A stretch of 64,000 nucleotides of DNA from Thiocapsa rosea. Lineage in GTDB: Bacteria > Pseudomonadota > Gammaproteobacteria > Chromatiales > Chromatiaceae. The DNA lies in the NCBI RefSeq assembly GCF_003634315.1, contig NZ_RBXL01000001.1:1224501-1288500 (forward strand). The letters run 5' to 3'. Each line of letters starts with the position of its first letter. The first letter of the stretch is position 1. The translations under genes and the position numbers were made by a program. Shown in pieces: positions 37,667 through 60,487 of this stretch. The notes beneath the pieces were generated by a model. That model saw only the letters and a program-made list of their open reading frames with translations. It was not told where the DNA came from and searched no databases.

Positions 37667-38752
37667 ATGCCCCAATCCCACGTGAAGAAAATCGACCTCG
37701 GTCTCCAGGGCGGCGGCGCGCATGGCGCCTTCACCTGGGGCGTGCTCGACCGCTTGCTTGCCGAGGAGCGCATCGAGATCGAAGGCATCAGCGGCACCTC
37801 TGCCGGGGCAATGAACGCCGTGGTCGTGGCGGATGGCTTGGCAGCCGGCGGACGCGAGGCGGCGCGCGAGGCACTCGCGCGCTTTTGGCGCGCGGTCAGC
37901 GACGCCGGGCGGAACAGCCCGATGCAGCGCACCTGGCTCGACCAGATACTCGGCCGCTGGACACTCGACTTCTCGCCCGGCTTCCTGACCATGGACCTGT
38001 TGAGCAGGCTGGTCTCGCCCTACGAGATGAACCCGCTCAACATCAACCCGTTGCGTGACCTGCTGGCGGCCAATGTCGACTTCGATCGGGTCAACCGCTG
38101 CGATCCGCTGAAGCTGTTCATCAGCGCCACCAATGTCCGCACCGGTCGTCCGCACATCTTCAAAAAGCCGAACATCACGGTGGATTCGGTGATGGCCTCG
38201 GCCTGCCTGCCGCTGATGTTCCAAGCGGTCGAGATCGACGGGGAAGCCTATTGGGACGGCGGTTTCATGGGCAACCCGGTCCTCTATCCGCTCATCGAGG
38301 AAACCTCCTCGAGCGATCTCGTCATCGTGCAGATCAACCCTCTGGTGCGCGAGAGTCTGCCCCGAACCGCACGGGACATCCTCAATCGAATCAACGAAAT
38401 CGACTTCAACTCAAGCCTAATGAAAGATCTGCGTGCGATCCTGATGCTCAAGATGCTGGGCAGCGCCCCGGAGCACCAAGACGAGCGCCTGCGCAATCTG
38501 GCCGTTCATCGCATCCACGCCGAGCAGGAGCTCGTCGACCTGGGCGTATCTTCGAAGATGAACGCCGAATGGGCGTTCCTCCAATACCTGCACGACATCG
38601 GCTGGCGCACCGCCGAATCCTGGATCAACGACCACTGGGATGATCTTGGCGTGCGCTCCACCTATCCGCTCGAGCATGTCCTCTGGGGCCTGGACACCGT
38701 CATGCAGGACGCCGCCGATGCGGCAACCGCTCCGCCCGATCACGAGGCTTAA
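37667..38752 (+). CDS. Patatin-like phospholipase/hydrolase, RssA type
   Basis: The 361-residue protein has the complete patatin signature: oxyanion loop LGLQGGGAHGAFTWGVLDRL, nucleophile GISGTSAGAMNA (Ser near residue 49) and catalytic Asp in DGGFMGNP. Patatins hydrolyse acyl esters; in bacteria that make polyhydroxybutyrate, similar genes often accompany 3-hydroxybutyrate dehydrogenase. With bdhA and GntP permeases nearby, a role in polymer or lipid turnover is plausible but unproven. The ATG at 37667 precedes the family's first strand. Its TAA stop is the start of a repeat pair. Confidence 0.9.
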   Translation: MPQSHVKKIDLGLQGGGAHGAFTWGVLDRLLAEERIEIEGISGTSAGAMNAVVVADGLAAGGREAAREALARFWRAVSDAGRNSPMQRTWLDQILGRWTLDFSPGFLTMDLLSRLVSPYEMNPLNINPLRDLLAANVDFDRVNRCDPLKLFISATNVRTGRPHIFKKPNITVDSVMASACLPLMFQAVEIDGEAYWDGGFMGNPVLYPLIEETSSSDLVIVQINPLVRESLPRTARDILNRINEIDFNSSLMKDLRAILMLKMLGSAPEHQDERLRNLAVHRIHAEQELVDLGVSSKMNAEWAFLQYLHDIGWRTAESWINDHWDDLGVRSTYPLEHVLWGLDTVMQDAADAATAPPDHEA

Positions 38753-38941
38753 ACCGCGCCCCACGCGGTATGCAATGTTTTTGGATGGGATCGGCCCCGG
38801 CAGACTTGACGACCGCTGGAGCCGGCGCAGTTTAAGAGATAAAAAACAGATCGTTTTAAACCGCATACCCGCTAAGGGCTGCGGATGCACCAAACGTCGA
38901 GCTCACTCGAAAATTTAGCATCTCGCTCTGGACGCGGTTTA
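38750..38941. repeat. TTAAACCGCG inverted-pair repeat, stop to stop
   Basis: Left unit 38750-38835 (TAAACCGCGCCCCACGCGGT ... GCAGTTTAA), AT-rich linker, right unit 38855-38941 (TTTTAAACCGCATACCC ... CTCTGGACGCGGTTTAA). The left unit begins with the TAA of the patatin gene, the right unit ends with the complement of the TAA of the convergent GntP permease. The whole intergenic region is therefore the repeat. Three other full copies lie at 51719, 57382 and 60295. Confidence 0.92.
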
Positions 38942-40444
38942 AAAGGAACCGAAAACCTGACCGATACTGATGATCGCGACGAGTGCGATCAGGGTTCCGC
39001 CGAGCATCACCACCGCGATGTCGCGATAACTGCCCTTGTGGCCGACTCCGGCGATGGCCAGCAACGTGACCACGGCGCCGTTGTGCGGCAGGCTCGACAG
39101 ACCGCCGGAGGCGATCGCGGCGACCCGATGCATCAGCTCCGGATCGATCCCGGCCGCGCTCGCCAGCTCTGCATAGGTCTCACCGAGCGCCTGCAGCGTG
39201 ATCATCAGCCCGCCGGACGCGGAGCCGGTGATGCCGGCGATGACGTTCGTCGCCACTGCCAGCGAGACCAGCGGTCCTCCGTCGAGCGACAGGAAGGCGG
39301 CGCTGACCAGCTCGAACGCCGGCACCGCAGCGATGACCGCGCCGAAACCGACCATGCTCGCGGTGTTCATCACCGGCAGCACCGAGGCATTGGCGCCGGC
39401 ATTCATACTCGCGCGCAGCGCGGTCAGGCGCCGGAGGTTGACGGCAATCAGTGTCAGGATGCCGGCCAGCAGCGCGGTCGCCACCGACCAGATGCCGCCA
39501 ACCGCTGCCAGAGAGGTGCTGCCCCAGGCGGCCTCGGCAAGGAAGTCGGTATCGAGCCACGGCAACACCGCCAGGCTCATCAGCAGGTTGGTGAGGACGA
39601 CGACGACCATCGGCAGCACCGCCAACGCGAAGTGCGGCTGCTGCGTGCTGCGCTGCCCGTGCTCGCACTCGGCCGGATCGAACACATCGGTGGTGCTCAC
39701 CCGTTCACGCAGCAGCCTGTCCTCGGCAGGATCTGCCGCCGAGCGCACATTGGTCCCCGAGGGCTCGCCGATCGCAACCGACTCGGGGGTCGTCCGATAA
39801 CCCTCGCCACGGCGGCGCGCCTGCGCGGCGACTCGCCCCAGCCACCAGAGTCCGAACAGCAGCATGATCGCCGCGGCAATCAACCCGAGCCCGGGCGCCG
39901 CGAAGGGCGTGGTGCCGAACCACGGCATCGGGATGGCGTTTTGGATGGCCGGTGTGCCCGGCATCGCCGTCATCGTGAACGTGAAGGCGCCGAGCGCGAC
40001 CGTCGCCGGGATCAGCCGATGCGGGATCTCGGCGCGGCGAAACAGCGCCGCGGCCACCGGCACGACGACGAAGGCGACCACGAACAAGCTGATACCGCCA
40101 AAGGTGAGCAGTGCACAGGCGATCACGACGGCGAGTATCGCGTGCTCGCTCCCCAGCGCACGGGTCAACACGTGCGCGATGGACAACGCCGAGCCGCTGT
40201 CGTCCATCAGCTTGCCGAACAGGGCGCCAAGCAGGAACAACGGGAAGAACTGCGCGACGAAGCCGGCCGCGCCGCTCATAAAGGTCTGTGTCCAGCTCGC
40301 CAGCAGCGGCTCGCCGGCGATGGCTGCCGCGACCAGCGCCGCCGCGGGGCCGACCAGCAGCACGCTCCAGCCGCGGTAGGCCAGCGTGATCAAGAGGCCG
40401 AGCCCGGCCAGGATACCGACTAACCCTATCCAATCAGCGACCAT
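38939..40444 (-). CDS. GntP-family permease, copy 2
   Basis: The 501-residue paralogue of copy 1 shares every main motif: GWSVLLVGPAAALVAAAIAG, FFPLFLLGALFGKLMDDSG, TMTAMPGTPAIQNAIPM, GSASGGLMITLQALGE and LSSLPHNGAVVTLLAIAGVG. A hydrophilic loop near residues 205-265 differs most. The ATG at 40444 (MVADWIGLVGIL) aligns with copy 1; AAAGGTG lies upstream. The same family tail persists as a relic at 46710. Substrate is inferred only from context (3-hydroxybutyrate or another hydroxy acid). Confidence 0.88.
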   Translation of the reverse strand: MVADWIGLVGILAGLGLLITLAYRGWSVLLVGPAAALVAAAIAGEPLLASWTQTFMSGAAGFVAQFFPLFLLGALFGKLMDDSGSALSIAHVLTRALGSEHAILAVVIACALLTFGGISLFVVAFVVVPVAAALFRRAEIPHRLIPATVALGAFTFTMTAMPGTPAIQNAIPMPWFGTTPFAAPGLGLIAAAIMLLFGLWWLGRVAAQARRRGEGYRTTPESVAIGEPSGTNVRSAADPAEDRLLRERVSTTDVFDPAECEHGQRSTQQPHFALAVLPMVVVVLTNLLMSLAVLPWLDTDFLAEAAWGSTSLAAVGGIWSVATALLAGILTLIAVNLRRLTALRASMNAGANASVLPVMNTASMVGFGAVIAAVPAFELVSAAFLSLDGGPLVSLAVATNVIAGITGSASGGLMITLQALGETYAELASAAGIDPELMHRVAAIASGGLSSLPHNGAVVTLLAIAGVGHKGSYRDIAVVMLGGTLIALVAIISIGQVFGSF

Positions 40445-40660
40445 CAGAAACACCTTTCGCGTCGATCCGATGCTGGCGGGGCACGACGCTCCGGAGAGGG
40501 CGTCGACTCGGCCAAGCGTTGCCGGCGTAACATAACCAGGGCGCTCCAGCCATGGAAAGCGCTGCCGGCGCAATGCTTCGTGAAAGCACGTTTTTTGCTC
40601 CGCTTTGCTTAGCGCATAGGGGACGAGCATCGATCACCGCACCCAAAGCGGCGTCGGTCT

Positions 40661-43600
40661 TCATCCAAGCTCGGAGCGCGGCGCCGGTGCCGCGCCGGCC
40701 GGGGTCGCCGGAGTCGCGTCGCGCAACCGCACCTCACGCTGGGGCAGCCCGATGGGGATGCCGGCGGTGCGCAGTTGCCGGTCGATGGCGATGATCAGCT
40801 CGCCGCGGATCTGGTGACGGTTGGTCAGCGACGGCAGGAAATAGCGAAACAGCAGTTCGATTCCCCGCTCGCCGAACTCGGCTGCGGTGATCACCGGCGC
40901 CGGGTCGATCAGAACCCGCGGATCCGCGGCGGCCACCTCGGCCAGGATGCGCAGCGCGGCCTCGGTATCGCTGCCATATTCGATGCTCAAGCGGATCTCG
41001 CCGCGGTTGACCTGATCGGACAGGGTCCAGTTGATCACTTCCCGGGTGATCAACTGGTTGTTGGGAACCAGGAGCTCCCGCCGGTCCTTGATGCGGACGG
41101 TGGTCGCGCGCGCCGCGATGTGGGTGACCTCCCCATAGTGCATGCCGACGCTCACCGTGTCGCCGACCCGCACCGGCCGCTCGAACAGCAGAATCAGCCC
41201 GGCGATGAAGTTGGCGACGATCTCCCGCAGGCCGAAGCCGATGCCCACACCCAGGGCCGCCACCAGCCATTGCACCTGCTCCCAGTTGAGCCCCAGCCGC
41301 CCGGCCCCGTAGAGCAGCGCCACCGCGATGATGCTGTAGCTGGTGAGGGTGATGATGGTATAGCGCCCGCCGGCACTGCTGTTGGCACGCTTGAGCAGGA
41401 GGATCTCCAGCAGGGCCGGCAGGTGGCGCACGGCAATCATGGCGCCGGCGGCGATGACCAGCACGCTGCCCAGGTCCGCGAGGGTCACCGGTAGGGTACT
41501 GGTTTGCCAGAGTGGGATGCGCTCCAGCACCCCCAGCGCCGGCAGTACGTCAGACCACAAGACCCACAGCCCGATGCCGCCGCCCAGTGTCAGCAGGGCG
41601 TTGACCAAGCTGCGGCTATGGGCATCCAAGGCCCCCAGGTCCACCTCGTCCTCGGCGTCTGCCGGGGCCTTGGCGCCGCCGACCGCCCCGGCGGCGCGGC
41701 GGTCGCGGCGCTCGAGTACGGCCCGCAGGGCCAGCGCCCGGCGGGTCACCAACAACCAACGCACGATGGACTGCTGCACCACCACCAGCCCCAGCACCAA
41801 CCAAAGCTGGTTGATCCACAGCTCAAAGAGGGTCGTCGCGGCGTACTGAAAGCCGGCCAGTGTCAGCCCGGCCAGGGCCAGCGGCACCGCTACCGCCAGT
41901 GAATACCAGAGCCAGCGGGTGCGGCTGACCAGGCCACCGGGCCGGGCCAGCAGGAGCTCCCGCAGCACGCCACGGGTCGGGTGCACGGCGCGAGCCAGCA
42001 GCAGGGCGAAACCCAGCGTCACGGCGGTCAGCAACAACCGCCCCAAGGTGGCAGCCTGGATCTCCCCGAGCCCGTTGACGGTGGTCGCGAAAAAACCGAT
42101 CGGAAGCAGGGTCCAGATGGCGGCATTCAGATAGCGGCGCAGCCGAACCAGGGTGTCGGCGCGCCAGCGGAAATGCCGCTCGGCCACCCCGCCCGACATG
42201 CACAGCAGCCGGAACGCACGCAGGCAATAGAGCCCCGGCGCGATCTGCAGCAGACCCTGACCGACCGCGTAGGCAAAGCCGTCCGCTCCGGGGGCGCCGG
42301 TCAGCATCAGCCCGGCCAGGGCCAGCAACAGCGATACCGGCGCAGCCAGCAGCAAGGTCAGCGCGATCGCCCACAGCGTATAGGCGAAGCGATCGGTACG
42401 GATGCGCCGCAAGGGCTCAACCGTCGAGCGGATGCGCCGGCGCAGGGTCCGGTCGAGCACCAGCAACAGGCCCACCAGCGTCAGCCCACCCCACCAGATC
42501 CAGTCGTCGGCGAGCCTGGAGCCAAGGGTTCGTGCCACTGCCAGCCATTGGGTCGGGCGCAACAGCTCGGCGAGCACCGCCGGCAGGGCGGCAAAGCTCT
42601 GCTGGGTCAAGGGAACGTTGCTGCGCAACCACAGCAGGTGCTCGGCCAGAAAATTGTCGTATTCGAGGGTCAGAGCGCGCAGATCGGCAGCGGCCAAATC
42701 AAGCTCCGCCAGCACCTTCAAGTGCCGCTCCTCGGCCGTGATGGCGCGCTCGAGCAGCTCGAGCCGGCGGGCTTGCAGCTCCCCGAGCTGGGCCTCGATG
42801 GTCGCGACATCGGCCGGGGCCGTCGTTGCCGGGGGCTCGGCCCCGGCGCGCAGCATCAGCAGCTCCTCGCGCCAGCGCAACTGAGCCAGCCTGCCCTCGG
42901 CCTCGGCGTCGGCCCGCTCGGCGGCCTGCCGACGCTGCACCCGCGGATCGGGCAGGCGCTCGCGCTGGTCGATCAACACCCGGCCCAGCGCCTGGCTTAC
43001 ACCCGCCGCGGCAACCCTCTGGCGGTCGTTGGCGAAGTCCTGCGCCAGCGCCGTGGTGGTCGCGGTCGTCGCGGCGAGCCGCTCGGTCACCGCCGCGGTG
43101 CGCTGGTCCAACGCCTGGATGGCCTCTGCCAGTTCGGCGTTGGCGCGGGCCAGTTCACGCACCGGCGGATGCGCGTCGGCAACCGCCGCCCGCTCTGCCT
43201 CGGTCTCGGCGCGCAGCCGGGCGGCCTCGTTGCGGCGGCGCTCGTCGACCGCCACGGTCAGCCAAGCCTGGCGGCTACGGGCCTGATCCAGTGCCTGACG
43301 GGTCTCGTCGTGCCGAGCCCGGGCCAGCGCTCGGCTCGCCTCCGCTCCGCTCACCCTCAGCTCCAGTACCAGCGCCTCGGCGCGCATGCGGTCGCGCTGG
43401 CTCTCCAGCAGCCAGCGCCGGATCGGCGGCTCGTCGCCATCAGCGCCGGCGGCCAGGGCCCCGGCGAGCCCGTCGTCGAGGTCCGCGGCCTGCTGGCGCA
43501 GCTCCTCGCGCTGACGGCGCCAGCCGGGGAGCGCCTCGGCGTCCTCGGTCAGCGTCTGCTCCAAGGTCGTCAGCCGGTCCTCCAGGGCCGCCACCGCGGT

Positions 43601-44164
43601 GGTCTCCTGGGCCAGCCATTGTTGCACCGTCTCCAGGCCGGCCCCGGCCGGCACCTCCACCGGCGGGTCCCGGGGGGACTCGGCCGCCGCCAACCGGGCA
43701 CGGATGGTGGCCGCCTGCCCTGGCGCGCTGGCCTGGACCTCGCGCAGCTCCAAGACCGTCTCGTTGGCCTGAGCCAGTGCCTCCAGATTGCCCAGCACCC
43801 GATCCAGGTCAGCATCGAGCCGGGCGCGCTCCTCGGTGGTCAGGCTCGGGTCATCGGCCAGCGCATCGCGGGCGGCGGCCACCTCGGCGGAGGTCAGCGC
43901 CGAGCCGATCAGTCCGCCGGTGTCGGCGGCCGGCGGCGGGGCCGCTAGGACAGGCGCGGCGCCGGCCGCCAGCAGGATGAGACCGGCAAGGGTTGCCGAC
44001 CAGCGGCGACGCCGGCCGGCGTCTTGAGTCGGGCGGCAAGAGTTCGGCGGCGCGGTTTCCACGGCGGCAGGCGATGGCGCCGGCTCGGCTCGCCCGAGCC
44101 GAGGGTTGACCCTGTCAGCGGCCAAGCGTGTTGTTGAGGGAGCCGGGAAGATGTTCCGACTCAT
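40661..44164 (-). CDS. mscK: MscK/KefA-type mechanosensitive channel
   Basis: About 1167 residues: a signal peptide after an Arg cluster (GRRRRWSATLAGLILLAAGA), a long periplasmic coiled-coil domain (about residues 85-560), some eight to eleven membrane helices, and the MscS core QWLVAALGVGIGFGLREIVA, NFIAGLILLFERPVRVGD and ELLVPNNQLITREVINWTLS. MscK gates with tension and is K+-modulated in E. coli. The ATG at 44164 lies inside a rhodanese relic in another frame; a GTG at 44062, just before the signal peptide, may be the true start. The N-terminal leader is odd, consistent with a rearrangement joining two loci. Confidence 0.9.
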   Translation of the reverse strand: MSRNIFPAPSTTRLAADRVNPRLGRAEPAPSPAAVETAPPNSCRPTQDAGRRRRWSATLAGLILLAAGAAPVLAAPPPAADTGGLIGSALTSAEVAAARDALADDPSLTTEERARLDADLDRVLGNLEALAQANETVLELREVQASAPGQAATIRARLAAAESPRDPPVEVPAGAGLETVQQWLAQETTAVAALEDRLTTLEQTLTEDAEALPGWRRQREELRQQAADLDDGLAGALAAGADGDEPPIRRWLLESQRDRMRAEALVLELRVSGAEASRALARARHDETRQALDQARSRQAWLTVAVDERRRNEAARLRAETEAERAAVADAHPPVRELARANAELAEAIQALDQRTAAVTERLAATTATTTALAQDFANDRQRVAAAGVSQALGRVLIDQRERLPDPRVQRRQAAERADAEAEGRLAQLRWREELLMLRAGAEPPATTAPADVATIEAQLGELQARRLELLERAITAEERHLKVLAELDLAAADLRALTLEYDNFLAEHLLWLRSNVPLTQQSFAALPAVLAELLRPTQWLAVARTLGSRLADDWIWWGGLTLVGLLLVLDRTLRRRIRSTVEPLRRIRTDRFAYTLWAIALTLLLAAPVSLLLALAGLMLTGAPGADGFAYAVGQGLLQIAPGLYCLRAFRLLCMSGGVAERHFRWRADTLVRLRRYLNAAIWTLLPIGFFATTVNGLGEIQAATLGRLLLTAVTLGFALLLARAVHPTRGVLRELLLARPGGLVSRTRWLWYSLAVAVPLALAGLTLAGFQYAATTLFELWINQLWLVLGLVVVQQSIVRWLLVTRRALALRAVLERRDRRAAGAVGGAKAPADAEDEVDLGALDAHSRSLVNALLTLGGGIGLWVLWSDVLPALGVLERIPLWQTSTLPVTLADLGSVLVIAAGAMIAVRHLPALLEILLLKRANSSAGGRYTIITLTSYSIIAVALLYGAGRLGLNWEQVQWLVAALGVGIGFGLREIVANFIAGLILLFERPVRVGDTVSVGMHYGEVTHIAARATTVRIKDRRELLVPNNQLITREVINWTLSDQVNRGEIRLSIEYGSDTEAALRILAEVAAADPRVLIDPAPVITAAEFGERGIELLFRYFLPSLTNRHQIRGELIIAIDRQLRTAGIPIGLPQREVRLRDATPATPAGAAPAPRSELG

Positions 44165-44261
44165 ACTCTGCCGGGGAACGGACATCGATCACACGAATCG
44201 CAGGATTCGCCGCCATTGCCGTGCGCAGCGTTTGCGCGTCCCAAGAAAGCGTCTCTTGCAT
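44115..44261 (-). pseudogene. Truncated rhodanese-domain gene
   Basis: An ATG at 44261 opens a 48-codon frame, MQETLSWDAQTLRTAMAANP then AIRVIDVRSPAEYESEHLPG and SLNNTLGR, then TGA. VIDVRSPAEYESEHLPGS is the unmistakable first half of a rhodanese (IDVRxxxEY..GHIPGA). The catalytic Cys half is missing; the sequence runs straight into the mscK leader. It is thus a 3'-truncated remnant, probably cut when mscK arrived or when DNA between was deleted. Confidence 0.85.
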
Positions 44262-44303
44262 CACTCTCTACCCCCAAAAGTCCTTCGTTTGATCGCCGCA
44301 CCG

Positions 44304-45086
44304 CTACTGCGCCAGCCAGCCGCCGTCGAGGGGTAGGCCGACGCCGCGCATGTTGCAGGCGGCATCCGAGCACAAATAGACCGCCAGCGCACCGAGCTGC
44401 TCCGGGGAGGTGAAGGTCTGCGACGGCTGCTTGTCGCCGAGCAGCTTGACGCTGGCATCCTCGTTGGAGAGCCCATCGCGCATGGCCAGCGCATCGATCT
44501 GCTTCTGCACCAGCGGGGTCAGCACCCAGCCGGGACAGATGGCGTTGCAGGTCACGCCGGTGGTGGCCGTCTCCAGCGCGACGGCCCGGGTCAGGCCCAT
44601 GACGCCGTGCTTGGAGGCGACATAGGCGGACTTATCCACCGATGCGACCTGGCCGTGCACCGAGGCGATGTTGATGATGCGGCCCCAGTCGCGCTCGAGC
44701 ATCTGGCCCAGTACCGCACGGGTGATCAGGAAGGGGGCGGTCAGGTTGATGGCGATCACCGCATCCCAGCGATCGACGGGGAAGTCCTGCACCGGCGACA
44801 CATGCTGGATGCCGGCGTTGTTGACGGCGATGTCGATCTTGCCCAGCTCGCGGTTGGCCGTCTGGATCATGCGCTCGATGTCCGCGGGCTTGGTCATGTC
44901 GGCACCGCAGTAGGCGACCTTGATGCCGTACTCGCTGGACAGCTGTCGGCGCAGCCTGTCGATCTCGGACGTATCGCCGAATCCGTTCAGCAGGATGTCC
45001 GCCCCATCGGCGGCCAGCGCCCGCGCAATCCCTAAGCCGATGCCGCTGGTCGAGCCGGTGACGACGGCGGTTTTACCGTTCAACAT
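44304..45086 (-). CDS. bdhA: D-3-hydroxybutyrate dehydrogenase
   Basis: The 260-residue short-chain dehydrogenase has the NAD-binding TGSTSGIG (residues 10-17), NNAGIQHVSPVQDFPVDRWD, catalytic Ser in INIASVHGQVAS, and YVASKHG. The NNAGIQHV and ICPGWVLTPLVQKQIDA stretches are diagnostic of 3-hydroxybutyrate dehydrogenase, which oxidises (R)-3-hydroxybutyrate to acetoacetate in polyhydroxybutyrate breakdown. The ATG at 45086 has GAGG upstream. The flanking GntP permeases and patatin gene fit a hydroxybutyrate pathway. Confidence 0.94.
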   Translation of the reverse strand: MLNGKTAVVTGSTSGIGLGIARALAADGADILLNGFGDTSEIDRLRRQLSSEYGIKVAYCGADMTKPADIERMIQTANRELGKIDIAVNNAGIQHVSPVQDFPVDRWDAVIAINLTAPFLITRAVLGQMLERDWGRIINIASVHGQVASVDKSAYVASKHGVMGLTRAVALETATTGVTCNAICPGWVLTPLVQKQIDALAMRDGLSNEDASVKLLGDKQPSQTFTSPEQLGALAVYLCSDAACNMRGVGLPLDGGWLAQ

Positions 45087-45123
45087 GGTTGCGTCCTCTT
45101 CAGTTGGGATTGGAGACAGGGAT

Positions 45124-46542: not shown

Positions 46543-46709
46543 GCCGAGGTTCTCCGCTGGATCGATTGGGATGGGTGGGCGCTGCGGTCCGGCCGAGTGC
46601 GGACCATCGACGCTCGTGTCTTGGCTCGTGCCTTGGGTACTGCGCCGGCGAGTCGGGCGGGTCCTGCGCGCGGGCCGCCGCGGAGACCACGATCTCCCGG
46701 CGTGCGCGG

Positions 46710-49581: not shown

Positions 49582-49641
49582 TTTGCCGCTTTGATCAGCG
49601 CCCGTGCCAGTCCATCTCATCCTAGCCAGCTCCTCCTCGCC

Positions 49642-50596: not shown

Positions 50597-51721
50597 ATGC
50601 TCTATCTCGACATTCCGACCGCGGATGACTATGCCGACCTGGCCGCCTTTCGCGGCGACATGGCGGTGTCCATCTCGCTGCCGACCACGCCGGTCAGCGA
50701 CGACATCGATGCCGCCCGTATTCAGCTCAAGAATCTGATCAAGGAAGCGGTGGATCAGCTCGAGGCGGCCGGCGCCAACAAGCGCCGCGTTCGCGCGTTG
50801 ATCGAGGAACTGGACGACCTGGTCGAGGACGACGTCTTCTGGGCCTATCAGGCGCACGGTCTGGTGATCTACGCCACCCCGGACAACCTGCGCACCTTCC
50901 GCGTGCCGAACGCGCTCGAGCCGCTGGTCAAGGTCTCGGACCGTTTCCACCTCAAGGCACTGCTGCGCTCGACCACCTTTTGCGACGCCGGCTATGTGCT
51001 GGCCTTAGCCGACGGCGGCGTGCGCCTGATCGAGGTCAACAAGGACCTGCCGGCGGCGGAGCTGAAGGTCCCGGATCTACCCGCCGATGCCGCCTCGGCG
51101 GTGGGTCAACGCAGCATCTCGGTTCGCTCCTACAGCGGTCGCATCGGCGGCAGCGAGGGCAAAAAGGTGCGGCTGCGCCAATATGCGCGCCAGGTCGATA
51201 CCGCCTTGCGCGCCATCCTCGCCGGCCGCCAAGAGCCGCTGATCCTGGCCTCGGTCGATGCCCTGGATGCGATCTATCGCTCGGTCAACAGCTACCCTCA
51301 CCTGCTGGAGCAGAGCTTGGGCGGCAATCCCGAGCGCAAGAGCGCCGGCGAACTTGCGATGGCCGCGCGCGCGCTGCTCGACGAGGTCTACCGCGGTCGG
51401 ATCGCCGATTGGCACGAGCGCTACCGCGCGCGGCTCAACGAGGACCGCGCCACCACGGATCTGGTGCGCGCAGCGCGCGCCGCGACGGCGGGCGCCGTCG
51501 CCAGCCTGCTCGTCGACATGGATCAGGCGGTCAACGGCACGGTCGACGACGCCGACGGCAGCGTCACCTTCGCCGACGAGGCCAGCGCCGAGACCTACGG
51601 TGTGGCCGACGAGGTCGCCCGTCGCGTGCTGATGACCGGCGGCGAGGTGCTCAGCGTGCGCACCGAGGATATGCCCGAGCCCGGCAAGGCGGTGGCGGCG
51701 GTCCTGCGTTATCCAATCTAA
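50597..51721 (+). CDS. Bacterial archaeo-eukaryotic release-factor-like protein (baeRF11 type)
   Basis: The 374-residue protein has the layout of the baeRF families: an N-terminal domain (LYLDIPTADDYADLAAFRGD ... VSISLPTTPVS), a middle eRF1-like region (ALADGGVRLIEVNKDLPAAE) and a C-terminal L7Ae-like part (VASLLVDMDQAVNGTVDDAD, EVARRVLMTGGEVLSVRTED). baeRF proteins are thought to act at ribosomes, perhaps in rescue or under stress, but few have been tested. GGAGAACCCAATG gives a strong start. The stop codon TAA is the first part of a TTAAACCGCG repeat pair. Confidence 0.82.
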   Translation: MLYLDIPTADDYADLAAFRGDMAVSISLPTTPVSDDIDAARIQLKNLIKEAVDQLEAAGANKRRVRALIEELDDLVEDDVFWAYQAHGLVIYATPDNLRTFRVPNALEPLVKVSDRFHLKALLRSTTFCDAGYVLALADGGVRLIEVNKDLPAAELKVPDLPADAASAVGQRSISVRSYSGRIGGSEGKKVRLRQYARQVDTALRAILAGRQEPLILASVDALDAIYRSVNSYPHLLEQSLGGNPERKSAGELAMAARALLDEVYRGRIADWHERYRARLNEDRATTDLVRAARAATAGAVASLLVDMDQAVNGTVDDADGSVTFADEASAETYGVADEVARRVLMTGGEVLSVRTEDMPEPGKAVAAVLRYPI

Positions 51722-51911
51722 ACCGCGCCAAGCGCGGTATGCGATGTTTTTGGATGGGATCGGCCCCGGCAGACTTGACGACCGTTGGAGCCGGCGCGGT
51801 TTAAGGTATTAAAAAATATTAAACTTTAAACCGCGTCTCACCGAAATCGAGGACATCTCCGAAGCCAAAGGCAACATGAAAACGACGCATGTCGCTCTGG
51901 ACGCGGTTTAA
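51719..51911. repeat. TTAAACCGCG inverted-pair repeat, copy 2
   Basis: Left unit 51719-51804 begins at the baeRF11 stop codon (TAAACCGCGCCAAGCGCGGT) and ends GGCGCGGTTTAA. An AT-rich linker (GGTATTAAAAAATATTAAAC) follows, then the right unit 51825-51911 ending CTCTGGACGCGGTTTAA. The next gene on the minus strand ends 59 bp further on. Confidence 0.92.
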
Positions 51912-51970
51912 TCTGATCCAGCGCGCGGGCGCGGCGCGGGGCTACCCTGGGTCGCTCAACCCTGCGTCGC

Positions 51971-53343: not shown

Positions 53344-53470
53344 GCTGGTGGACTCTTTCACCGTCGAAACGACCACCGATTTTAACCGAGGAAATCCCCT
53401 GGTCGCAGCCGAACGCGGCTCGCAGCACAGTCTTATGCTGACTCGGCAAAGTCCATCGGGCTGCGCTCGA

Positions 53471-55993
53471 TCAATTCGAGGCCGCGGCGGCCAATCGCTT
53501 CAATGCCTGTAGATCGAGAGCGCGACAGAGTTGCTCGATGCCCAGCCACATGGGCTTGCGCTCTGAGTCCTTGTCCGCCATCTCCTGCGCCCATCGTTGC
53601 AGGCCGACGACCTGACCCATGGCGACCATCGCTTGCAAACACTTGCGCTCGTCGGCGGCGAGAGCGACCGACAGCAGCATCGGATCGGGCTGCAGTATGT
53701 CCTCGACCGGAGAGGCGGTCTCATACTCCCAATCCAGCGCCAGCGCTTCGGCCAAGAGTTTCGCCAGTATCGACTCGGTGAGCGGTTTCATGGCAAATCC
53801 ATCGAAGGCCATGTCCTCGGGATGGCCTCGAGGTCGTTGCGCGGGTGCGGCCGAGATCAGGATCACCGGCGGATGGCGCCCCCGCTGCGAAGCGCGCAGC
53901 GCTTGCAAACACGCCCAGCCATCGAGACGGGGCATGAATTGATCGACCAAGACCGCGTCCACCGACGCCTCCCGCGCCTGGAAACGCTCGATGGCCTCGG
54001 CGCCATCGGCTGCCTCGATGACCTCGAACCCCCAACTGCGGCAGCACTCCGACAAGAAGTCGCGACTCGTCGCTTGGTCATCGGCAATCAGCAAGGTACG
54101 ACGCCGTCCCGCGTAGCCCAGGATGACCAGATCCTCGTCGGCGCCCTGCTCGAGCGCCGTGCCGATCGGCAACCGCAGCTGAAATCGGAAGGTACTGCCC
54201 GAATCCGGACCCACGCTGCTGTACAGACTGATTTCACCGCCCATGGCCGTGGTCAGTTGCTGCGCGATCGGCAGTCCGAGCCCGATGCCGGGCAAACCTC
54301 GGTGCCGTTCCAGGCGCTGGAAGGGTTGAAACACCGCCTCCCGCTTCGCCGCCGGAATCCCAACACCGGTATCGGCGACACTGAAGCTCAGCAAACAGTC
54401 GGCGCCCTTTGCGTTCTCCGCTGCCGTGGTCGACTCGATCCGCTCGATGCCGAGCTCGATACATCCATCGCGAGTGAACTTGCAGGCATTGTCCAAGAGA
54501 TTGCGTAGGATCTGGGTCAACCGCAGCTCATCGGCAATGACCCAGTCCAGGCTGCCGGTTTCAAGCTTGACGACGAATCGATTATTTCCTCGCGCCGCGA
54601 GCGGTCGGTAGGTCGCGGTCAGGTTGCGCGCCAACCGGCCGAGCGAGAGTGGCCCCGGCTCAAACACGATGGGTTTTACCTCGCCGTGGCTATAGTCGAG
54701 GATATCGTTGATCAGCCTTAGGAGTTGATTGCCACTCTCCAGGATGATCCCCAGCTGGTCGCGAGCCTGCAGCGGGACCTGCCGGGCAAGCAGCCGAGCA
54801 TAGCCCAGGATGTCGTGCAGGGGTGAGCGCAGCTCGTGGCTGACAGCAGATAGAAAGGCCGACTTGGCCTGGTCGCTCTCTTGCGCACGGGCCGCCGCAT
54901 TGCTCAGGACGCGGGTACGATCCTTCACCGCCGCCAGCAACCGGGCCTCCAAAGTCGCGTTGAGTTCCTGCAATGTCTCCTTCTTGTGCTGCAACTGTGT
55001 CTTGGTCTGCTCCAACGCCTTCTTTTCTTCTTGGAGTCGAACCTCGGATCGGCGCAGCTCCGACTCGACACGCTGCCGCACCCGAATCTCGCGCGCCAGC
55101 CTTCGATTCCAGAAAAAGACAGCGATGACCACCAATGAGGCGGCAGCCAAGATACTGAACGCCAATCGATAGTCCTCTCGTGATCGCATCTCGAGATGAA
55201 TCCATTTACCGAGAATGGCGTCGCGATCTTCTTGCGTCATCGAGGCAATGCCCTTATCGATCAGACTGGCCAATTCCGGCCAATCCGCTCGGACCGCCAT
55301 CGCCTGGGTGTTGATGCCGTAATGCGTCGGCGCGGCGACCACGAGGTTCGTGAGCCGATGCTCCTTAATCAGAAAGGTACCCACGGCCAGATTGCCGACA
55401 TAGGCATCGGCTTGTCCCGTCGCGAGTGCCGTGAGTGCATCCAGGGCCGTCGGCACCTGAAGGATGTCGATACTTGGAAAGCCCCGCTTGATCATATCAA
55501 TGATCAAGAATCCCCACTCTGCGACGACTGTCTTCCCGGCCAGGCTTTCGAGGCCAATCAGGTAGGGACTATCCTGGCGGGTATAGATCACCCAAGGCGC
55601 GCTCAGGTAATCATCGGTGACGGCGAACTGTTTCAGCCGTTCCGGCGTTCGCGTAAAGGTCGGCAGCAGATCGTAATGCTCCCGGGGGCCAGCGAGATCG
55701 GCAACGGCAGCACCAAAGGTCATTTCCGCGGGGACGTATTCGACGTCGAAACCAAATTGCTCCGCAATATGATCGAGATAATCGACCGCAAGCCCTGTTG
55801 GTCGGGGCTCTTTGATCATATACGGCGGATACTCGCTGATGCGGACACGGACCGTATGACGAGCAGCTAGCCAAGCGCGCTCCTGATCCGTCAACCCTAG
55901 CGGGCTCACGTCGAGCGTTTGCGCGGTTACTGCGCAAGGGATCAATAAACCCAGGCCCAGCCCGATCAGCAACAGGTTCTTTACGCACAACAT
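53471..55993 (-). CDS. Hybrid sensor histidine kinase with periplasmic solute-binding domain
   Basis: The 840-residue protein has a signal peptide (MLCVKNLLLIGLGLGLLIPC... VTAQ), a bacterial solute-binding family-3-like sensor domain (about residues 35-275; YPPYMIKEPRPTGLAVDYLD), one membrane helix (about 285-303), a coiled coil, HisKA (LSAVSHELRSPLHDILGYAR), HATPase (N-box NLLDNACKF; DTGVGIPAAKRE; GIGLGLPIAQQL) and a C-terminal receiver (Asp in VDAVLVDQFMPRLDG). The BvgS-like layout suggests direct sensing of a small amine or amino acid in the periplasm. Phosphate likely passes to the AraC-type regulator encoded next. Confidence 0.92.
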   Translation of the reverse strand: MLCVKNLLLIGLGLGLLIPCAVTAQTLDVSPLGLTDQERAWLAARHTVRVRISEYPPYMIKEPRPTGLAVDYLDHIAEQFGFDVEYVPAEMTFGAAVADLAGPREHYDLLPTFTRTPERLKQFAVTDDYLSAPWVIYTRQDSPYLIGLESLAGKTVVAEWGFLIIDMIKRGFPSIDILQVPTALDALTALATGQADAYVGNLAVGTFLIKEHRLTNLVVAAPTHYGINTQAMAVRADWPELASLIDKGIASMTQEDRDAILGKWIHLEMRSREDYRLAFSILAAASLVVIAVFFWNRRLAREIRVRQRVESELRRSEVRLQEEKKALEQTKTQLQHKKETLQELNATLEARLLAAVKDRTRVLSNAAARAQESDQAKSAFLSAVSHELRSPLHDILGYARLLARQVPLQARDQLGIILESGNQLLRLINDILDYSHGEVKPIVFEPGPLSLGRLARNLTATYRPLAARGNNRFVVKLETGSLDWVIADELRLTQILRNLLDNACKFTRDGCIELGIERIESTTAAENAKGADCLLSFSVADTGVGIPAAKREAVFQPFQRLERHRGLPGIGLGLPIAQQLTTAMGGEISLYSSVGPDSGSTFRFQLRLPIGTALEQGADEDLVILGYAGRRRTLLIADDQATSRDFLSECCRSWGFEVIEAADGAEAIERFQAREASVDAVLVDQFMPRLDGWACLQALRASQRGRHPPVILISAAPAQRPRGHPEDMAFDGFAMKPLTESILAKLLAEALALDWEYETASPVEDILQPDPMLLSVALAADERKCLQAMVAMGQVVGLQRWAQEMADKDSERKPMWLGIEQLCRALDLQALKRLAAAASN

Positions 55994-56017
55994 CCTCCAA
56001 GCTCCCCCATCTGCTTG

Positions 56018-56116
56018 TGCACTCCTTCCGACCTGTTGGCGAAAGATGCCTGATAGCCACTGATTGGTCCCGATCCGATGCGCAAACCCGGCGGCTGCGA
56101 CCACTCCGAGACTCGG
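56018..56116 (-). pseudogene. AraC-type helix-turn-helix relic upstream of the hybrid kinase
   Basis: In the frame leading into the kinase, before its ATG, the sequence AAGFAHRIGTNQWLSGIFRQ QVGRSAQ can be read. It matches ALAHQVGTNQQRLTRIFREQ VGMSAY in the REC-AraC regulator at 52525 residue for residue in the first helix-turn-helix. The rest of the domain is gone. It is a fragment of a former second regulator gene, or debris of a duplication of the regulator-kinase pair. Confidence 0.75.
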
Positions 56117-56157
56117 TGCCGACGGCATGCGCCTTGTCGGCGTCATTTATGAGACCG

Positions 56158-56236
56158 GCCGGTAGAGTGGACGAGCGAGAGCGAAGTCCACCGAACCCCG
56201 CGCCGGCGCTGGTGGACTGCGCTGCGCTTGCCCGAT
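56158..56236. repeat. GTAGRGTGGAC palindromic repeat pair
   Basis: GTAGAGTGGACGAGCGAGAG CGAAGTCCACC and GGTGGACTGCGCTGCGCTTG CCC form inverted copies of the GTGGAC repeat family also found near 3.1, 10.7 and 63.2 kb. They stand in the 490-bp region between the divergent hybrid kinase and outer-membrane-protein genes, which otherwise contains only the AraC relic and presumed promoters. Confidence 0.75.
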
Positions 56237-56481
56237 GACTGAACCACGCCGACGCCGTTCTAGCTGTGGAGCCGCCGGTGCGCTTGTCGAGGTATACCAT
56301 GATCTGCTTGACGGAGGGTGCTGTCGCGAAGATCCCTGTCGTGTCGCGATTCCGTGTGGGCCGGCTTCGAATAGGACCCCGGTCCAACCCGTGGCAAGCG
56401 CTGGTCCAGCCCGATCTCGGGATGCTATGGTCCACGCCGTTTCCTCAATCACCTCACCATGATTTCCAGGGAGTGTCTCCG

Positions 56482-57384
56482 ATGCCAGCGCCTTGCCTCG
56501 TTCGTGTCGCCTGTGCCGCCGTGCTGTCGACCGGGTTTGCCGCGGTCTCCGTCGCGCAATCGCCGCCGGGCGTCAGCTTTTCCGTCGCCCCGGTCGTTCA
56601 ATTCGACAGCGATCTCGACTCCGGCGGCGATGCCGCCTATGCCGCCGTGCTCATGTCGCTCGGAACGAGTTGGGCGCTCGACGGGCAGTCGTCTCTGGGT
56701 GTGCGGCTGCGCCTGGACTACGAAGACTGGGACTTCGACAAACCACTCGGATTCGGCGGCGAGCAGCCGTGGGACAGGCTGTACCGAGCAGGTGTCTCCA
56801 TACCCTACGGTTTCACGACCGAAAGCGGTTGGCGGCTGGGTCTGTCACCGACGATCGAGTCCTCGGGCGAATCGGGCGCCAACTTCTGGGACACGCTCGA
56901 ATACGGGGCCACGGGCTCGGTATCGCGCGCCTTGCGGCCCGATCTCACTCTCGGTGTGGGCGTGGGCGTCTTCGAGAAGATCGAGAAGACGAGCGCCTTC
57001 CCCTTCCTGATCATCGACTGGCGGATCAACGATCGCTTGCGCCTCACCAATCCTTTCCCGGCCGGCCCGGCCGGTCCCGCCGGGTTGGAGCTGTCGTATG
57101 TGCTCGATTCGGGATGGACTGCGGGCTTGGGCGCGGCCTACCGCTCCTATCGCTTTCGGCTCGACTCCGACGGCCCCTTCCCCGACGGCGTCGGCGAGCA
57201 CAGATTTATCCCCGTCTTCGTGCAGCTCGGACGCGACCTGACCGAGAGCCTGAGCTTCAAGCTCTACGCCGGTGCGTCGACCGGAACCACCCTAAGGGTC
57301 GACGACGAGAAGGGGCGACGGCTGTACGAGGAGGATCAGGATCCTGCGGTGATGTTGGGGGTGTCTTTGATCGGGCGCTTTTAA
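56482..57384 (+). CDS. Outer-membrane beta-barrel-like protein
   Basis: The 300-residue precursor has a signal peptide (cleavage after SVAQ near residue 26) and a mature part of alternating amphipathic strands rich in Gly, Tyr, Trp and Asp (VSFSVAPVVQFDSDLDSGGD, VRLRLDYEDWDFDKPLGF, AGLGAAYRSYRFRLDSDGPF) ending in Phe (SLIGRF), a typical outer-membrane assembly signal. It resembles DUF6268-type proteins; function unknown. The stop codon TAA begins a TTAAACCGCG repeat pair. Confidence 0.8.
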   Translation: MPAPCLVRVACAAVLSTGFAAVSVAQSPPGVSFSVAPVVQFDSDLDSGGDAAYAAVLMSLGTSWALDGQSSLGVRLRLDYEDWDFDKPLGFGGEQPWDRLYRAGVSIPYGFTTESGWRLGLSPTIESSGESGANFWDTLEYGATGSVSRALRPDLTLGVGVGVFEKIEKTSAFPFLIIDWRINDRLRLTNPFPAGPAGPAGLELSYVLDSGWTAGLGAAYRSYRFRLDSDGPFPDGVGEHRFIPVFVQLGRDLTESLSFKLYAGASTGTTLRVDDEKGRRLYEEDQDPAVMLGVSLIGRF

Positions 57385-57569
57385 ACCGCGCCCAGCGCGG
57401 TATGCAATGTTTTTGGATGGGATCTACCCTGGCAGACTTGACGACCGCCGGAGTCGGCGCGGTTTAAAGTATAAAAAATTAACTTTAAACCGCGTCTCGT
57501 TGAGATCAAGGAAGTCTCCGACGCTAAACACAAAATGAAAACTACGCATTTCGCTCTGGACGCGGTTCA
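57382..57569. repeat. TTAAACCGCG inverted-pair repeat, copy 3
   Basis: Left unit 57382-57467 begins at the stop codon of the outer-membrane protein gene (TAAACCGCGCCCAGCGCGGT) and ends GGCGCGGTTTAA; linker AGTATAAAAAATTAA; right unit 57484-57569 ends CTCTGGACGCGGTTCA. The last base change breaks the terminal TTTAA. Confidence 0.92.
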
Positions 57570-57574
57570 GGTCT

Positions 57575-57616
57575 GCGGAAGAGGTCGACTGCAAGTCGAC
57601 TATCCCGGGGAGGGGC
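57575..57616 (+). repeat. 40-bp dispersed palindromic repeat, copy 2
   Basis: GCGGAAGAGGTCGACTGCAA followed by GTCGACTATCCCGGGGAGG matches the minus strand of 7990-8030. It directly follows the third TTAAACCGCG pair and precedes the 3' end of the Uma2 gene. Confidence 0.7.
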
Positions 57617-57654
57617 GGCCGTTTCACGGCGAGCCGGTGCGACGCTTTCGGGCA

Positions 57655-58269
57655 TCAGCGCCCTTCCTCGACCCGCAACGCATCGCGATAGCCGCGGATC
57701 GCCTGCGAGGTGGTCGGCTCTTCGATGAAGCGCATCAGGAGGGCCAGATCCAATCCGGGCAGGACCTGGCTCTCGTTCACCGGCTCGTAGCGCTCCCCGC
57801 GCAGACAGTAGGGTTGGATCACACCCTTGCGCCAATACCAGACCTCCGCGACGCCGAGCTGGCGGTAGATCTCGAGCTTGTCGATGCGACCGTGGGTCCA
57901 GACGACCTCGATGGCGAGATGCGGGCGCTCCGCTGCCTCGGTCCCGAAGACATAGCACTCGTCCGGCTCGGCACCGCGGTTGCGGGCCTTGTCCTTGAGT
58001 GTCCATGAGCCGTAGGTCGAGAAGACGATGTCGCGCTCCAGACAATAGGTCTCGACCAGACGGCCGATCACGGACTTGATGCCTTCGTGGGTCTGCGACG
58101 GGCTCATGATCTCGACCTCTCCTTCCAGGTAGGCGATCCGCGGGGCGGAATGATCGCCGCGCATCACGAGAAGACGCTCGTAGTCATCCCAGCTCACGCC
58201 GGAGAAGTGGATGATGCCGTCATGGGTCGGTTCAGGGTCGGGTTGCCGATATCGGGCCTGACTGGACAT
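57655..58269 (-). CDS. Uma2-family (DUF820) protein, copy 2
   Basis: The 204-residue protein has the Uma2 core: WDDYERLLVMRGDHSAPRIA, YLEGEVEIMSPSQTHEGIKS, PDECYVFG and HLAIEVVWTHGRIDKLEIYR, then VAEVWYWRKGVIQPYCLRG. Acidic residues (E, D, ExV) are those expected of its PD-(D/E)XK-like fold. It differs much from the copy at 28323, so the two are not a recent duplication. The ATG at 58269 is the natural start. Function unknown. Confidence 0.85.
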   Translation of the reverse strand: MSSQARYRQPDPEPTHDGIIHFSGVSWDDYERLLVMRGDHSAPRIAYLEGEVEIMSPSQTHEGIKSVIGRLVETYCLERDIVFSTYGSWTLKDKARNRGAEPDECYVFGTEAAERPHLAIEVVWTHGRIDKLEIYRQLGVAEVWYWRKGVIQPYCLRGERYEPVNESQVLPGLDLALLMRFIEEPTTSQAIRGYRDALRVEEGR

Positions 58270-58458
58270 GAGGTTTGGTCTCCGATGCCGATCGTTTCAC
58301 ACCGCGCACGGCGCCATCGATACTCGCACGGCAGTGCGTGCGAGATCCATGGCGCTTTCCGATAGGATAAACGCTTTTCGGATCGGGGCGCGGGGTCCCG
58401 GGTCGGAAATCCATCGCGCCGGGCCGGCCACGGGTCGCAGCGCCACGGAGGAAACGGC

Positions 58459-60297
58459 ATGTCGCAAGACCTTCTGATTGTCCTTCTCATGCTGGGCGCC
58501 GCGATCCTGATGTTCGCGCTCAACAAGCCGCGGGTGGATGCCGTGGCCCTCATCATGATGGTGGCCTTGCCCTTTACGGGCGTCATCTCGGTCCAGGAGG
58601 CGCTCGCCGGTTTCAGTAATCCCAATATCGTCCTGATCGCAGCCATGTTCGTGATCGGCGAGGCGCTGGCCCGCACCGGGGTGGCTCGCGGCATCGGCGA
58701 CTGGCTGGCCAACCGCGGCGGCCACAGCGCCTGGCGACTCTTGGTGCTGCTGATGCTCTCGGTGGGTTTTCTCGGCTCGGTCATGAGCTCGACCGGGGTC
58801 GTCGCCATCTTTATCCCGGTGGTGCTGCGCATCGCGAGCCGGCGCCGCATCCCGGCGAGCCAGCTCATGATGCCGATGGCCTATGCGGCACTGATCAGCG
58901 GCATGATGACCTTGGTCGCCACCTCGCCCAATCTGGTGATCAACTACGAGCTCGTGCGCACCGGCGAGGAGGGCTTCAACTTCTTCTCCTTTACGCCCTT
59001 CGGGTTGCCGATCCTACTGATGGCGACCCTCTATATGCTGGTCACGCAGCGCTGGCTGCGTCCCAAGACATCCGAGGCGCCGACCGCCCGGATGCGCCCG
59101 AAACTGATGCAGTGGGTCGAGCGCTACCGGCTCGCCGATCGCGAGTACCGCGTGCGGGTGCGACCCGACTCGCCCTTGCTCGGCAGAACGCTGGGCGAGC
59201 TGGATCTGCCCGCGAAGATCGGTGTGCGGATCATCCTCATCGAGCGTGGTCTCGGGCGTGCGCGCCAATTGCTCCCGCGCACGCCGCAGACCGCTCTGCA
59301 AGCGCACGACATCCTCTTGATCGACGTCGACTTGGAGGAAAAGCACATCGACGTGACCGAGTTCTGCGAGCGCTACGGGGTCGAACTTCTGCCGCGCACG
59401 GGTCGCTATTTCGTCGACCGCTCGCAGGACATCGGCATGGTGGAGATCATGATCGCGGACGAGTCGCGCTTTGCCGGCAAGACGATCGCGGAGGCGGAGG
59501 TGATGGTCCGTTCCGAGCTGACCGTGGTCGGGATGCGGCGCGGCCCGGAGGCCCATGCACCGCACGGCCTGCGCGCCGAGACCCTGAAGATCGGCGATAC
59601 CCTGCTGCTCGTCGGCCCCTGGAAGACGATCCGCCGCCTGCAGGAGGATACGCGCGATCTGATCGTGCTCAATCTGCCCAAGGAGTTCGACGAATATCTT
59701 CCGGCGGCCAAACGCGCGCCTTACGCGGTTCTGACGCTCGTCGTCGTCGTGACACTGATGGCGACCGGCCTTGTCCCGAACGTCCAGGCCGCTCTGATCG
59801 GCTGTCTCATGATGGGGCTTTTTCGCTGCATCGATCTGGACAAGGCGTACCGCTCGATCCAGCTCAGGAGCATCGTCATGATCGTGGGCATGATGCCCTT
59901 CGCGCTCGCCTTGGACCGCACCGGCGGGGTCGACATCGCGGCAAACGCCTTGGTGGCCTGGATCGGGGACGCCGGTCCCCATGTGGTGCTCGGTGTCTTG
60001 TTCGCCATCACGGTGCTGCTGGGCCTCTTCATCGTGAACACGGCCAATGCGGTCCTGATGATCCCGGTCGCACTCGCCGTCGCCGAAGCCTTGGGCGCAT
60101 CGCCCTACCCCTTTGCCATGATCATCGCTCTCGCGGCATCGAGCGCCTTCATGACGCCTATCTCGCCCATCAACACCTTGGTCGCGACCGCGGGCAACTA
60201 CACCTTTGCCGATTTCATTCGCATCGGCTTGCCCCTGACGCTCTTGGTGATGATCATGAGCGTCCTCCTGGTGCCTTGGCTGCTGCCGCTCTCTTAA
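58459..60297 (+). CDS. SLC13/DASS-type transporter with two RCK_C domains, copy 2
   Basis: The 612-residue paralogue of the gene at 47752 shares the whole layout: AAILMFALNKPRVDAVALIM, GFSNPNIVLIAAMFVIGEAL, central TrkA_C pair (VRVRPDSPLLGRTLGELDLP and DIGMVEIMIADESRFAGKTI) and C-terminal FMTPISPINTLVATAGNYTF. GGAGGAAACGGCATG is a strong start. Na+- or H+-coupled uptake of sulfate or dicarboxylates is likely. The TAA stop begins the fourth TTAAACCGCG pair. Confidence 0.9.
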   Translation: MSQDLLIVLLMLGAAILMFALNKPRVDAVALIMMVALPFTGVISVQEALAGFSNPNIVLIAAMFVIGEALARTGVARGIGDWLANRGGHSAWRLLVLLMLSVGFLGSVMSSTGVVAIFIPVVLRIASRRRIPASQLMMPMAYAALISGMMTLVATSPNLVINYELVRTGEEGFNFFSFTPFGLPILLMATLYMLVTQRWLRPKTSEAPTARMRPKLMQWVERYRLADREYRVRVRPDSPLLGRTLGELDLPAKIGVRIILIERGLGRARQLLPRTPQTALQAHDILLIDVDLEEKHIDVTEFCERYGVELLPRTGRYFVDRSQDIGMVEIMIADESRFAGKTIAEAEVMVRSELTVVGMRRGPEAHAPHGLRAETLKIGDTLLLVGPWKTIRRLQEDTRDLIVLNLPKEFDEYLPAAKRAPYAVLTLVVVVTLMATGLVPNVQAALIGCLMMGLFRCIDLDKAYRSIQLRSIVMIVGMMPFALALDRTGGVDIAANALVAWIGDAGPHVVLGVLFAITVLLGLFIVNTANAVLMIPVALAVAEALGASPYPFAMIIALAASSAFMTPISPINTLVATAGNYTFADFIRIGLPLTLLVMIMSVLLVPWLLPLS

Positions 60298-60487
60298 ACC
60301 GCGCCCCACGCGGCATGCCATGTGTTTGGATGGGATCGGCCCCGGCGGATTGAGCGACCGCTGGAGCCGGCGCGGCTTAAGAGATTAAAAAACATATGAT
60401 TTTAAACCGCGTCTCCACAAAGGTCGGAAAAATCCCTAAGCCCAACACAACATGACAATCACGCATTTCACTCTGGACGCGGTTTAA
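60295..60487. repeat. TTAAACCGCG inverted-pair repeat, copy 4
   Basis: Left unit 60295-60380 begins at the transporter stop codon (TAAACCGCGCCCCACGCGGC) and ends GGCGCGGCTTAA; linker; right unit 60401-60487 ends CTCTGGACGCGGTTTAA. Unlike the other copies the next gene is in the same direction and starts 3 bp after the repeat, so the right unit forms the leader of the dCache gene. Confidence 0.92.

Follow-up and report, generated by a model that had tools for sequence, protein, structure and literature searches.

Why should one short repeat supply the stop codons of unrelated genes? The question arises from a 64,000-nucleotide stretch of the Thiocapsa rosea genome (contig NZ_RBXL01000001.1, positions 1,224,501 to 1,288,500; hereafter the window), in which an earlier note had pointed out four copies of a palindromic repeat, each made of two facing units, the left TAA of which closes the gene before it. 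Re-reading places these double copies, here A to D, at 38750-38941, 51719-51910, 57382-57569 and 60295-60486. It confirms that the left TAA of all four is the stop codon of the preceding open reading frame (ORF), that the right end of copy A is at the same time the stop of a convergent permease gene, and that three partial or short units of the window also touch stop codons. Comparison with related genomes supports well the conclusion that the unit is a mobile element, and stop codons are favoured as its sites beyond the supply of targets, as a strong preference and not as a rule. In our judgment the repeat is quite probably a non-autonomous mobile element, a hairpin unit akin to repetitive extragenic palindromic (REP) doublets forming hairpins (REPINs) and to miniature inverted-repeat transposable elements (MITEs), that is favoured at gene ends and then retained there.

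The basic element is a single unit of about 85 bp, mostly 83-86 bp, that occurs alone or as a pair and carries 12-base inverted ends, YTRAACCGCGYC..GRCGCGGTTYAR, mutually able to pair. At less than 200 bp it has no coding capacity, judged from its size. The copies of about 190 bp are two units, head-outward, flanking a linker of 21-24 bp. The two facing units and linker described earlier thus hold as an architecture but not as an obligate one: single units of about 85 bp occur, and an obligate 190-bp pair was rejected on that ground. GACATGC, a weak motif lying close to one end and marking it as the head, orients 208 of the 291 exact-ended units (at offset 18 in 182), and 32 of 34 oriented unit pairs are arranged head-outward. 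The pattern YTRAACCGCG-N60-72-CGCGGTTYAR, where Y is a pyrimidine and R a purine, finds 640 exact units in the whole source genome, and the reversed control pattern finds 0. Genome-wide matches to the right end with up to 3 mismatches number 314+299, against 1+1 for the reversed pattern, which bears out the claim of a repeat family beyond chance. Over 2.84 Mb from the source genome and relatives, TRAACCGCG (F) occurs 390 times and CGCGGTTYA (R) 372 times; the facing F-to-R span is 83-86 bp in 277 pairs, and neighbouring units are spaced 21-24 bp apart in 79 cases.

While the ends and their spacing are common to the family, the interiors vary. The form CTGAACCGCG..CGCGGTTCAG is found in 45 units of the source genome, the interiors of which bear no mutual relation by eye except faint common motifs. 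By terminal dinucleotides, 347 pattern matches divide into TA..TA (267), TG..CA (29), TA..CA (9) and TG..TA (6), the remainder being other. For the 17 TG..CA units of the tile sample described below, the best match to another unit did not exceed the best shuffled interior (0.72) in 13; it reached 0.73 in three and 0.89 in one. A strand or replichore bias of the copies was considered and rejected, both strands being represented in stretches that first seemed one-sided. At one locus (L196, near 3512) a double copy apparently sits within a unit of another copy.

Eight Thiocapsa genomes contain 164-640 exact units each, and three are near-empty (T. imhoffii, G002, with 1; G007 and G010 with 0). 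An order-level draw that includes Thiocapsa has at least 1 exact unit in 29 of 195 genomes and 10 of 56 genera, a distribution that is patchy outside the genus, and in a family-level draw of 57 genomes a covariance model of the unit has matches in 10. A second contig of 221 kb (tiles L157 and L158) gave 0 profile hits in 40 kb, compared with 13.7 per 100 kb in the remaining sample.

Evidence for movement comes from orthologous loci. The sequences flanking each element were joined and searched for in relatives, yielding 44 candidate loci. A filter of at least 10 of 15 matching flank bases on both sides left 28 rows and, with two duplicates removed, 26 distinct loci, counted by hand, each with a clean empty junction in a relative. 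The comparison that the earlier note had proposed thus shows that the copies are not all shared, and its idea of a mobile palindrome is upheld by clean empty sites, a mostly TA target and copies missing in a relative. The dinucleotide at the empty junction is TA in 14/26, TG or CA in 9/26 and another in 3/26, where relatives that disagree (TA in two and TG in one at copy D; TA and TC at L173 12601) are scored as TA. A stricter tally (11/15 filter, copy D entered twice) gives TA 12, TG 4, CA 4 and other 4. The site of copy D illustrates the range of states: it is filled in the source genome and in T. roseopersicina, which has another left unit there, holds a single unit in T. marina, and carries no element in Thiocapsa sp. 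KS1, G009 and UBA6158.

TA stands at both ends of most filled sites, filled ends reading TA..TA or TG..CA. The target is YTAR: at 97-98% of ends the dinucleotide is preceded by Y and followed by R. The sole further preference is a weak one for a pyrimidine at the adjoining base, at ends away from stops (75%). A 4-bp duplication of TTAA or YTAR was rejected, the left and right tetranucleotides often differing (e.g. CTAA/TTAG) and TA alone being common. The TG..CA units, with their correlated ends, agree with end dinucleotides that are part of the pairing stem and not a simple target duplication.

How often the element meets a stop codon was counted in 61 pieces totalling 1.264 Mb: the window, two tiles from the second contig, and 58 chromosome tiles placed at even intervals, of 60 kb in the first fifth of the chromosome and of 120 kb in the rest. 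The count took 117 of 168 profile hits, those dropped being partial, below 30 bits, near tile ends or without recognisable ends. The stop codon of a called gene lies exactly at an element end in 58/117 cases and, with the window set aside, in 54/113. By type, 36/67 doubles, 15/32 single left-type units and 7/18 single right-type units touch a stop. All 8 elements recognised in the window do so, one of them a unit missed before (3877-3961), and the reported seven of seven is correct for the window but not typical, as the outside tiles show. The distance check proposed in the note gives a divided answer in this sample, with half of the copies exactly at a stop and the remainder elsewhere, and part of the association is explained by the supply of YTAR.

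That supply matters because a genome of 65% G+C offers few YTAR sites other than TAA and TAG stops. Near gene ends, 159 YTAR sites lie at stops and 135 at +3 to +60, and measured against them the stop excess is modest (58/87, or 67%, observed; 54% predicted; p=0.01). A sharper comparison is by gap type, for which 103/117 elements could be placed. In convergent gaps the share at stops is 20/30 for elements and 34/170 for free YTAR sites (p=8e-7); the two figures are 35/62 and 124/718 in tandem gaps, and 1/11 and 0/236 in divergent gaps. The elements themselves are in excess in convergent gaps (30 convergent, 62 tandem and 11 divergent, as against 169, 663 and 256 for YTAR). Convergent gaps hold no promoter at risk, yet the stop excess persists there, which argues that availability alone is not the explanation. 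Targeting of stop codons, as first proposed, survives as a strong preference, seen in convergent gaps and at TGA stops, but about half of the copies lie elsewhere. The excess could come either from the insertion mechanism or from retention.

Two other readings of the stop contact were rejected. Under an orientation rule the left unit would always lie at the stop; double copies face stops with either end alike (20 left, 18 right), and among single left-type units it is more often the head end that lies at the stop (11 versus 4). An artefact of gene calling would not give 60 matched gene ends with a median of 324 amino acids and one below 60, nor an ancestral junction that is exactly a stop codon at 13/26 empty loci, TAA or TAG at 7 and TGA at 6.

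At these six TGA stops the filled site reads TAA. One of them, L173 15838, is TGA in three relatives, and the other five rest on one relative each. In control orthologous DNA without elements, TA is kept in 65/77 stops and 626/833 noncoding sites and becomes TG or CA in 8/77 and 99/833 (an earlier, smaller control gave 4/35 TA stops). TG or CA is therefore in excess at empty sites (9/26, p=0.003) and at stops in particular (6/13 versus 8/77, p=0.004). The excess is suggestive, not proof, of some insertions at TGA stops that left TAA behind.

The ends are conserved as a pairing stem, a conclusion that is well supported by their rate of change and by their complementarity. Between orthologous units of different species (30 pairs, reciprocals counted, with at least 1 pair of different unit subtypes, at copy D), the heptamer AACCGCG changed at 9/420 positions, the interior at 268/1352 (20%) and the flanks at 13-16%; exact ends were required in one partner, which makes this end rate up to twofold low. 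With no exact-end condition (profile hits, 55 pairs with reciprocals), 28/660 positions changed in the head end, 44/605 in the tail end and about 677/3406 in the interior (some 20%, summed from printed positions), with flanks at 13%. Change in the heptamers is slower than in the interiors by a factor of about 4 to 9, with 4 in the 55-pair set and 9 in the 30-pair set. In 291 units, the two ends pair more often than expected at position +8 (259; 143 expected), at the R/Y position (281; 232) and at the outer base (196; 152), and show no excess further out, though kinship among the units makes the events not independent. Within 35 diverged units, 98.3% of the cells of the 12-bp end stem are paired, versus 24-40% in slid controls, and three of five measures of covariation exceed all 500 shuffles.

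Folding points to the same stem. RNAalifold predicts only a stem joining the ends. Thirty doubles fold with a mean z of -5.3, or -4.0 without the outer 11 bases, and the 17 TG..CA units with -2.7 whole and 0.2 without their ends; 40 controls taken after stops give -0.7. An internal RNA structure common to all units was rejected in view of the RNAalifold result and of the TG..CA interiors. No Rfam family matches the unit at its gathering score, and two weak matches fall below it.

The explanation that we favour joins these results as follows. Insertion occurs mostly at YTAR, and a putative recombinase would recognise the paired ends of the unit. The A after the left TA of TA-ended units rebuilds TAA, so that a TAA, TAG or (apparently) TGA stop can take up an insertion with no change to the upstream protein. 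Copies would settle at gene ends since YTAR is rare elsewhere in the G+C-rich genome, those in genes and promoters would be lost, and an additional preference for stop codons would act beyond target availability. Settled copies would then retain their hairpin ends through selection, most simply if the hairpin acts at the mRNA 3' end, in stability or termination, or if it still binds a protein. A putative role as terminator or 3' untranslated region module, raised in the earlier note, is possible in the light of the strong folding, the conserved hairpin ends and the convergent-gap excess.

Several points weigh against the account of a mobile element retained at gene ends. Decay after insertion is expected of a mobile element, and the ends of the unit do not decay. 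A plain duplication of TA does not predict TG or CA at 9/26 empty sites and another dinucleotide at 3. Among 2.84 Mb there are 0 long end pairs, hence no long element with unit ends; none of the 9 Y1 transposase loci read (of 100 matches in the genus) and none of the 6 IS630 loci read (of 48) is framed by them. The set of ortholog pairs is small (30, counting reciprocals, from 11 tile pairs). Of the covariation measures in the 35 diverged units two fail to exceed shuffles, namely the number of double-change pairs (3) and that of pair types (7). In the end stem 8/12 pairs are invariant, 7 of these since exact heptamers were required. Finally, the gene calls behind the stop-codon counts come from a home-made caller.

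Among the rivals, an ordinary TA-target MITE survives best, and we give it an appreciable if minority chance. It would be of the IS630/Tc1-mariner type, named here from its TA target, and the stop association would be a by-product of the rarity of TA in G+C-rich genes together with purging. It expects the TA seen in the majority of targets and ends, and the YTAR supply at gene ends accounts for part of the observed share at stops. The same reasoning falls short in convergent gaps, where there is no promoter to protect and 67% of elements against 20% of YTAR sites lie at stops. TGA at six of 13 ancestral stops and the upkeep of the ends after insertion also speak against it, as do the 6 IS630 loci read (of 48), which lack unit ends, and a 91% complete genome (G008) that has 393 units and no IS630 match.

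A host cis-acting element, either a bidirectional terminator or an mRNA 3'-end hairpin, spread by rare recombination and kept where useful, with mobility incidental, seems to us rather unlikely. Conserved ends and spacing around a little-constrained interior would suit it, as would the strong folding, the convergent-gap excess and the finding that one stop codon bears different units in different species. Against it stand the clean empty sites and the many copies missing in a relative. The three Thiocapsa genomes with 0-1 exact units imply that such a function is dispensable, and a terminator would not need exact contact with the stop codon.

Less likely again is insertion directed to stop codons themselves, TGA included, in which the TA of the element would replace the first two bases of the stop, turning TGA into TAA and leaving the protein unchanged, and the hairpin, once selected, would become the 3' end of the gene. 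Least likely, and in our view improbable, is membership of the REP/REPIN class with movement by a REP-associated tyrosine transposase (RAYT, a Y1 transposase). REPINs (PMC3116915, PMC3733652) likewise show inverted ends that are conserved, a fixed length, an interior that varies, compensatory changes, an intergenic position on the 3' side of genes, and dimers. Against this, the GTAG tag and short REP stem-loop are lacking and the sole covarying stem joins both ends, the 9 Y1 loci read (of 100) are not framed by unit ends (one truncated Y1 gene, in L209, has a nearby unit on a single side), and T. imhoffii has 14 Y1 matches with its 1 exact unit.

These genomes, cultured species among them, offer a large natural system: a small mobile hairpin has a landing site that does no harm to proteins and is apparently then kept by selection. 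Hundreds of copies with differing middles and common ends and spacing would let a function of the ends be assigned directly. Such a function would bear on the old question of whether repeats of this kind are only parasites or become parts of gene ends.

The copies in the window are collected in Table 1.

Table 1. Units of the repeat in the window and the stop codons that they touch.
Feature	Coordinates	Strand	Contact or remark
Double copy A, head-left unit	38750..38834	+	TAA is the stop of the patatin gene (ORF end 38752)
Copy A, AT-rich linker	38835..38856
Copy A, second unit, head outward	38857..38941	-	Right end is the stop of the convergent GntP-like permease gene (ends 38939)
Double copy B, head-left unit	51719..51803	+	TAA is the stop of the baeRF11 gene (ORF end 51721)
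Copy B, second unit	51827..51910	-
Double copy C, head-left unit	57382..57466	+	TAA is the stop of the DUF6268 gene (ORF end 57384)
Copy C, second unit	57486..57569	-	Right end TCA, not TTA
Double copy D, head-left unit	60295..60379	+	TAA is the stop of the SLC13-like gene (ORF end 60297)
Copy D, second unit	60403..60486	-	Orthologous unit in T. roseopersicina
Single TGA..TCA-class unit, 85 bp	3877..3961		TGA at the right end closes the ribulose-phosphate epimerase gene
Truncated unit	21439..21500	-	TAA is the stop of the MaoC-like ORF
Truncated, degenerate unit	35645..35690	+	TAG is the stop of the GntP permease gene
Short unit, about 51 bp	63260..63310		TAA at the right end closes the glutamate symporter gene

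Pfam assigns the genes before the four double copies to patatin (PF01734), baeRF11 (PF18855), DUF6268 (24.1 bits; cut-off 22.8) and CitMHS/Na_sulph_symp. The names patatin, baeRF11, SLC13, GntP and GltS given earlier are retained, GntP and Glt_symporter scoring above their cut-offs, but the outer-membrane protein becomes DUF6268 and the MaoC match falls below its cut-off (19.9 versus 27 bits). The repeat ends both of two neighbouring paralogous GntP-like permease genes (35688-37172 and 38939-40630), direct repeat blocks that are 70-76% identical. An inverted pair of 43 nt, 86% complementary, lies at 7993-8035 and 57567-57609, one arm starting where copy C ends on its right. A further dispersed pair of inverted repeats (10729-10807 and 56155-56233; 79 nt, 89% complementary) occupies sites different from those of the 85-bp units. 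The window also has a GACAAC/GTTGTC-like repeat in short arrays (2976-3058, 18005-18060 and 25386-25429) and, at 5196-5412 on the minus strand, a Group II intron domain match (RF02005, 149.8 bits).

How does the unit compare with systems already described? The attC site of integrons is likewise a hairpin recombination site that abuts a stop codon; its boxes read RYYYAAC/GTTRRRY, and the unit ends do not fit them. No cassette arrays were seen in the window, and no search aimed at integron integrases was made. Among the matches listed for literature on Thiocapsa and Chromatiaceae repeats, titles and abstract openings held no description of the repeat, which is not proof of absence, and the matches listed in a text search for the heptamers look unrelated.

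The nearest published parallels come from three papers. GTAG REPs lie mainly downstream of genes, and their termini often supply the TAG stop of flanking ORFs (PMC3733652), so that our headline observation has precedent. They share with the Thiocapsa unit a repeat terminus that gives neighbouring ORFs their stops, a mostly downstream position and the formation of dimers; the unit differs in sequence, target and size (85 versus 20-40 bp) and supplies TAA or TGA, not TAG. The REPINs of Pseudomonas fluorescens (PMC3116915) likewise have two conserved inverted ends at a fixed distance around a variable middle, compensatory end changes, an extragenic location and many copies. Unlike them, the Thiocapsa unit has no REP/GTAG core and, in the part examined, no RAYT association, and it has a YTAR target, pairing of units around a linker and a preference for stop codons. 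No 20-40-bp stem-loop with a GTAG/CGTC tag is found in it: its ends are YTRAACCGCGYC, and many units contain CGTC, but within the stem and not unpaired as a tag would be. The TA-ended bacterial MITEs, among them Correia/NEMIS, RUP and ERIC/IRU (PMC2229807), resemble the unit in being mobile, protein-less and below 200 bp, with terminal inverted repeats and TA termini. The unit departs from them in ends that are conserved while the interior drifts, in its double head-out form, in not being A+T-rich, in TGA sites apparently rewritten to TAA, and in having no mobilising insertion sequence identified in the sequence examined. The unit has no REP tag, and the part examined yielded no RAYT frame and no IS630 partner, so we assign it to neither family. 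We regard it as a variant within the broad kind of small non-autonomous palindromic mobile elements.

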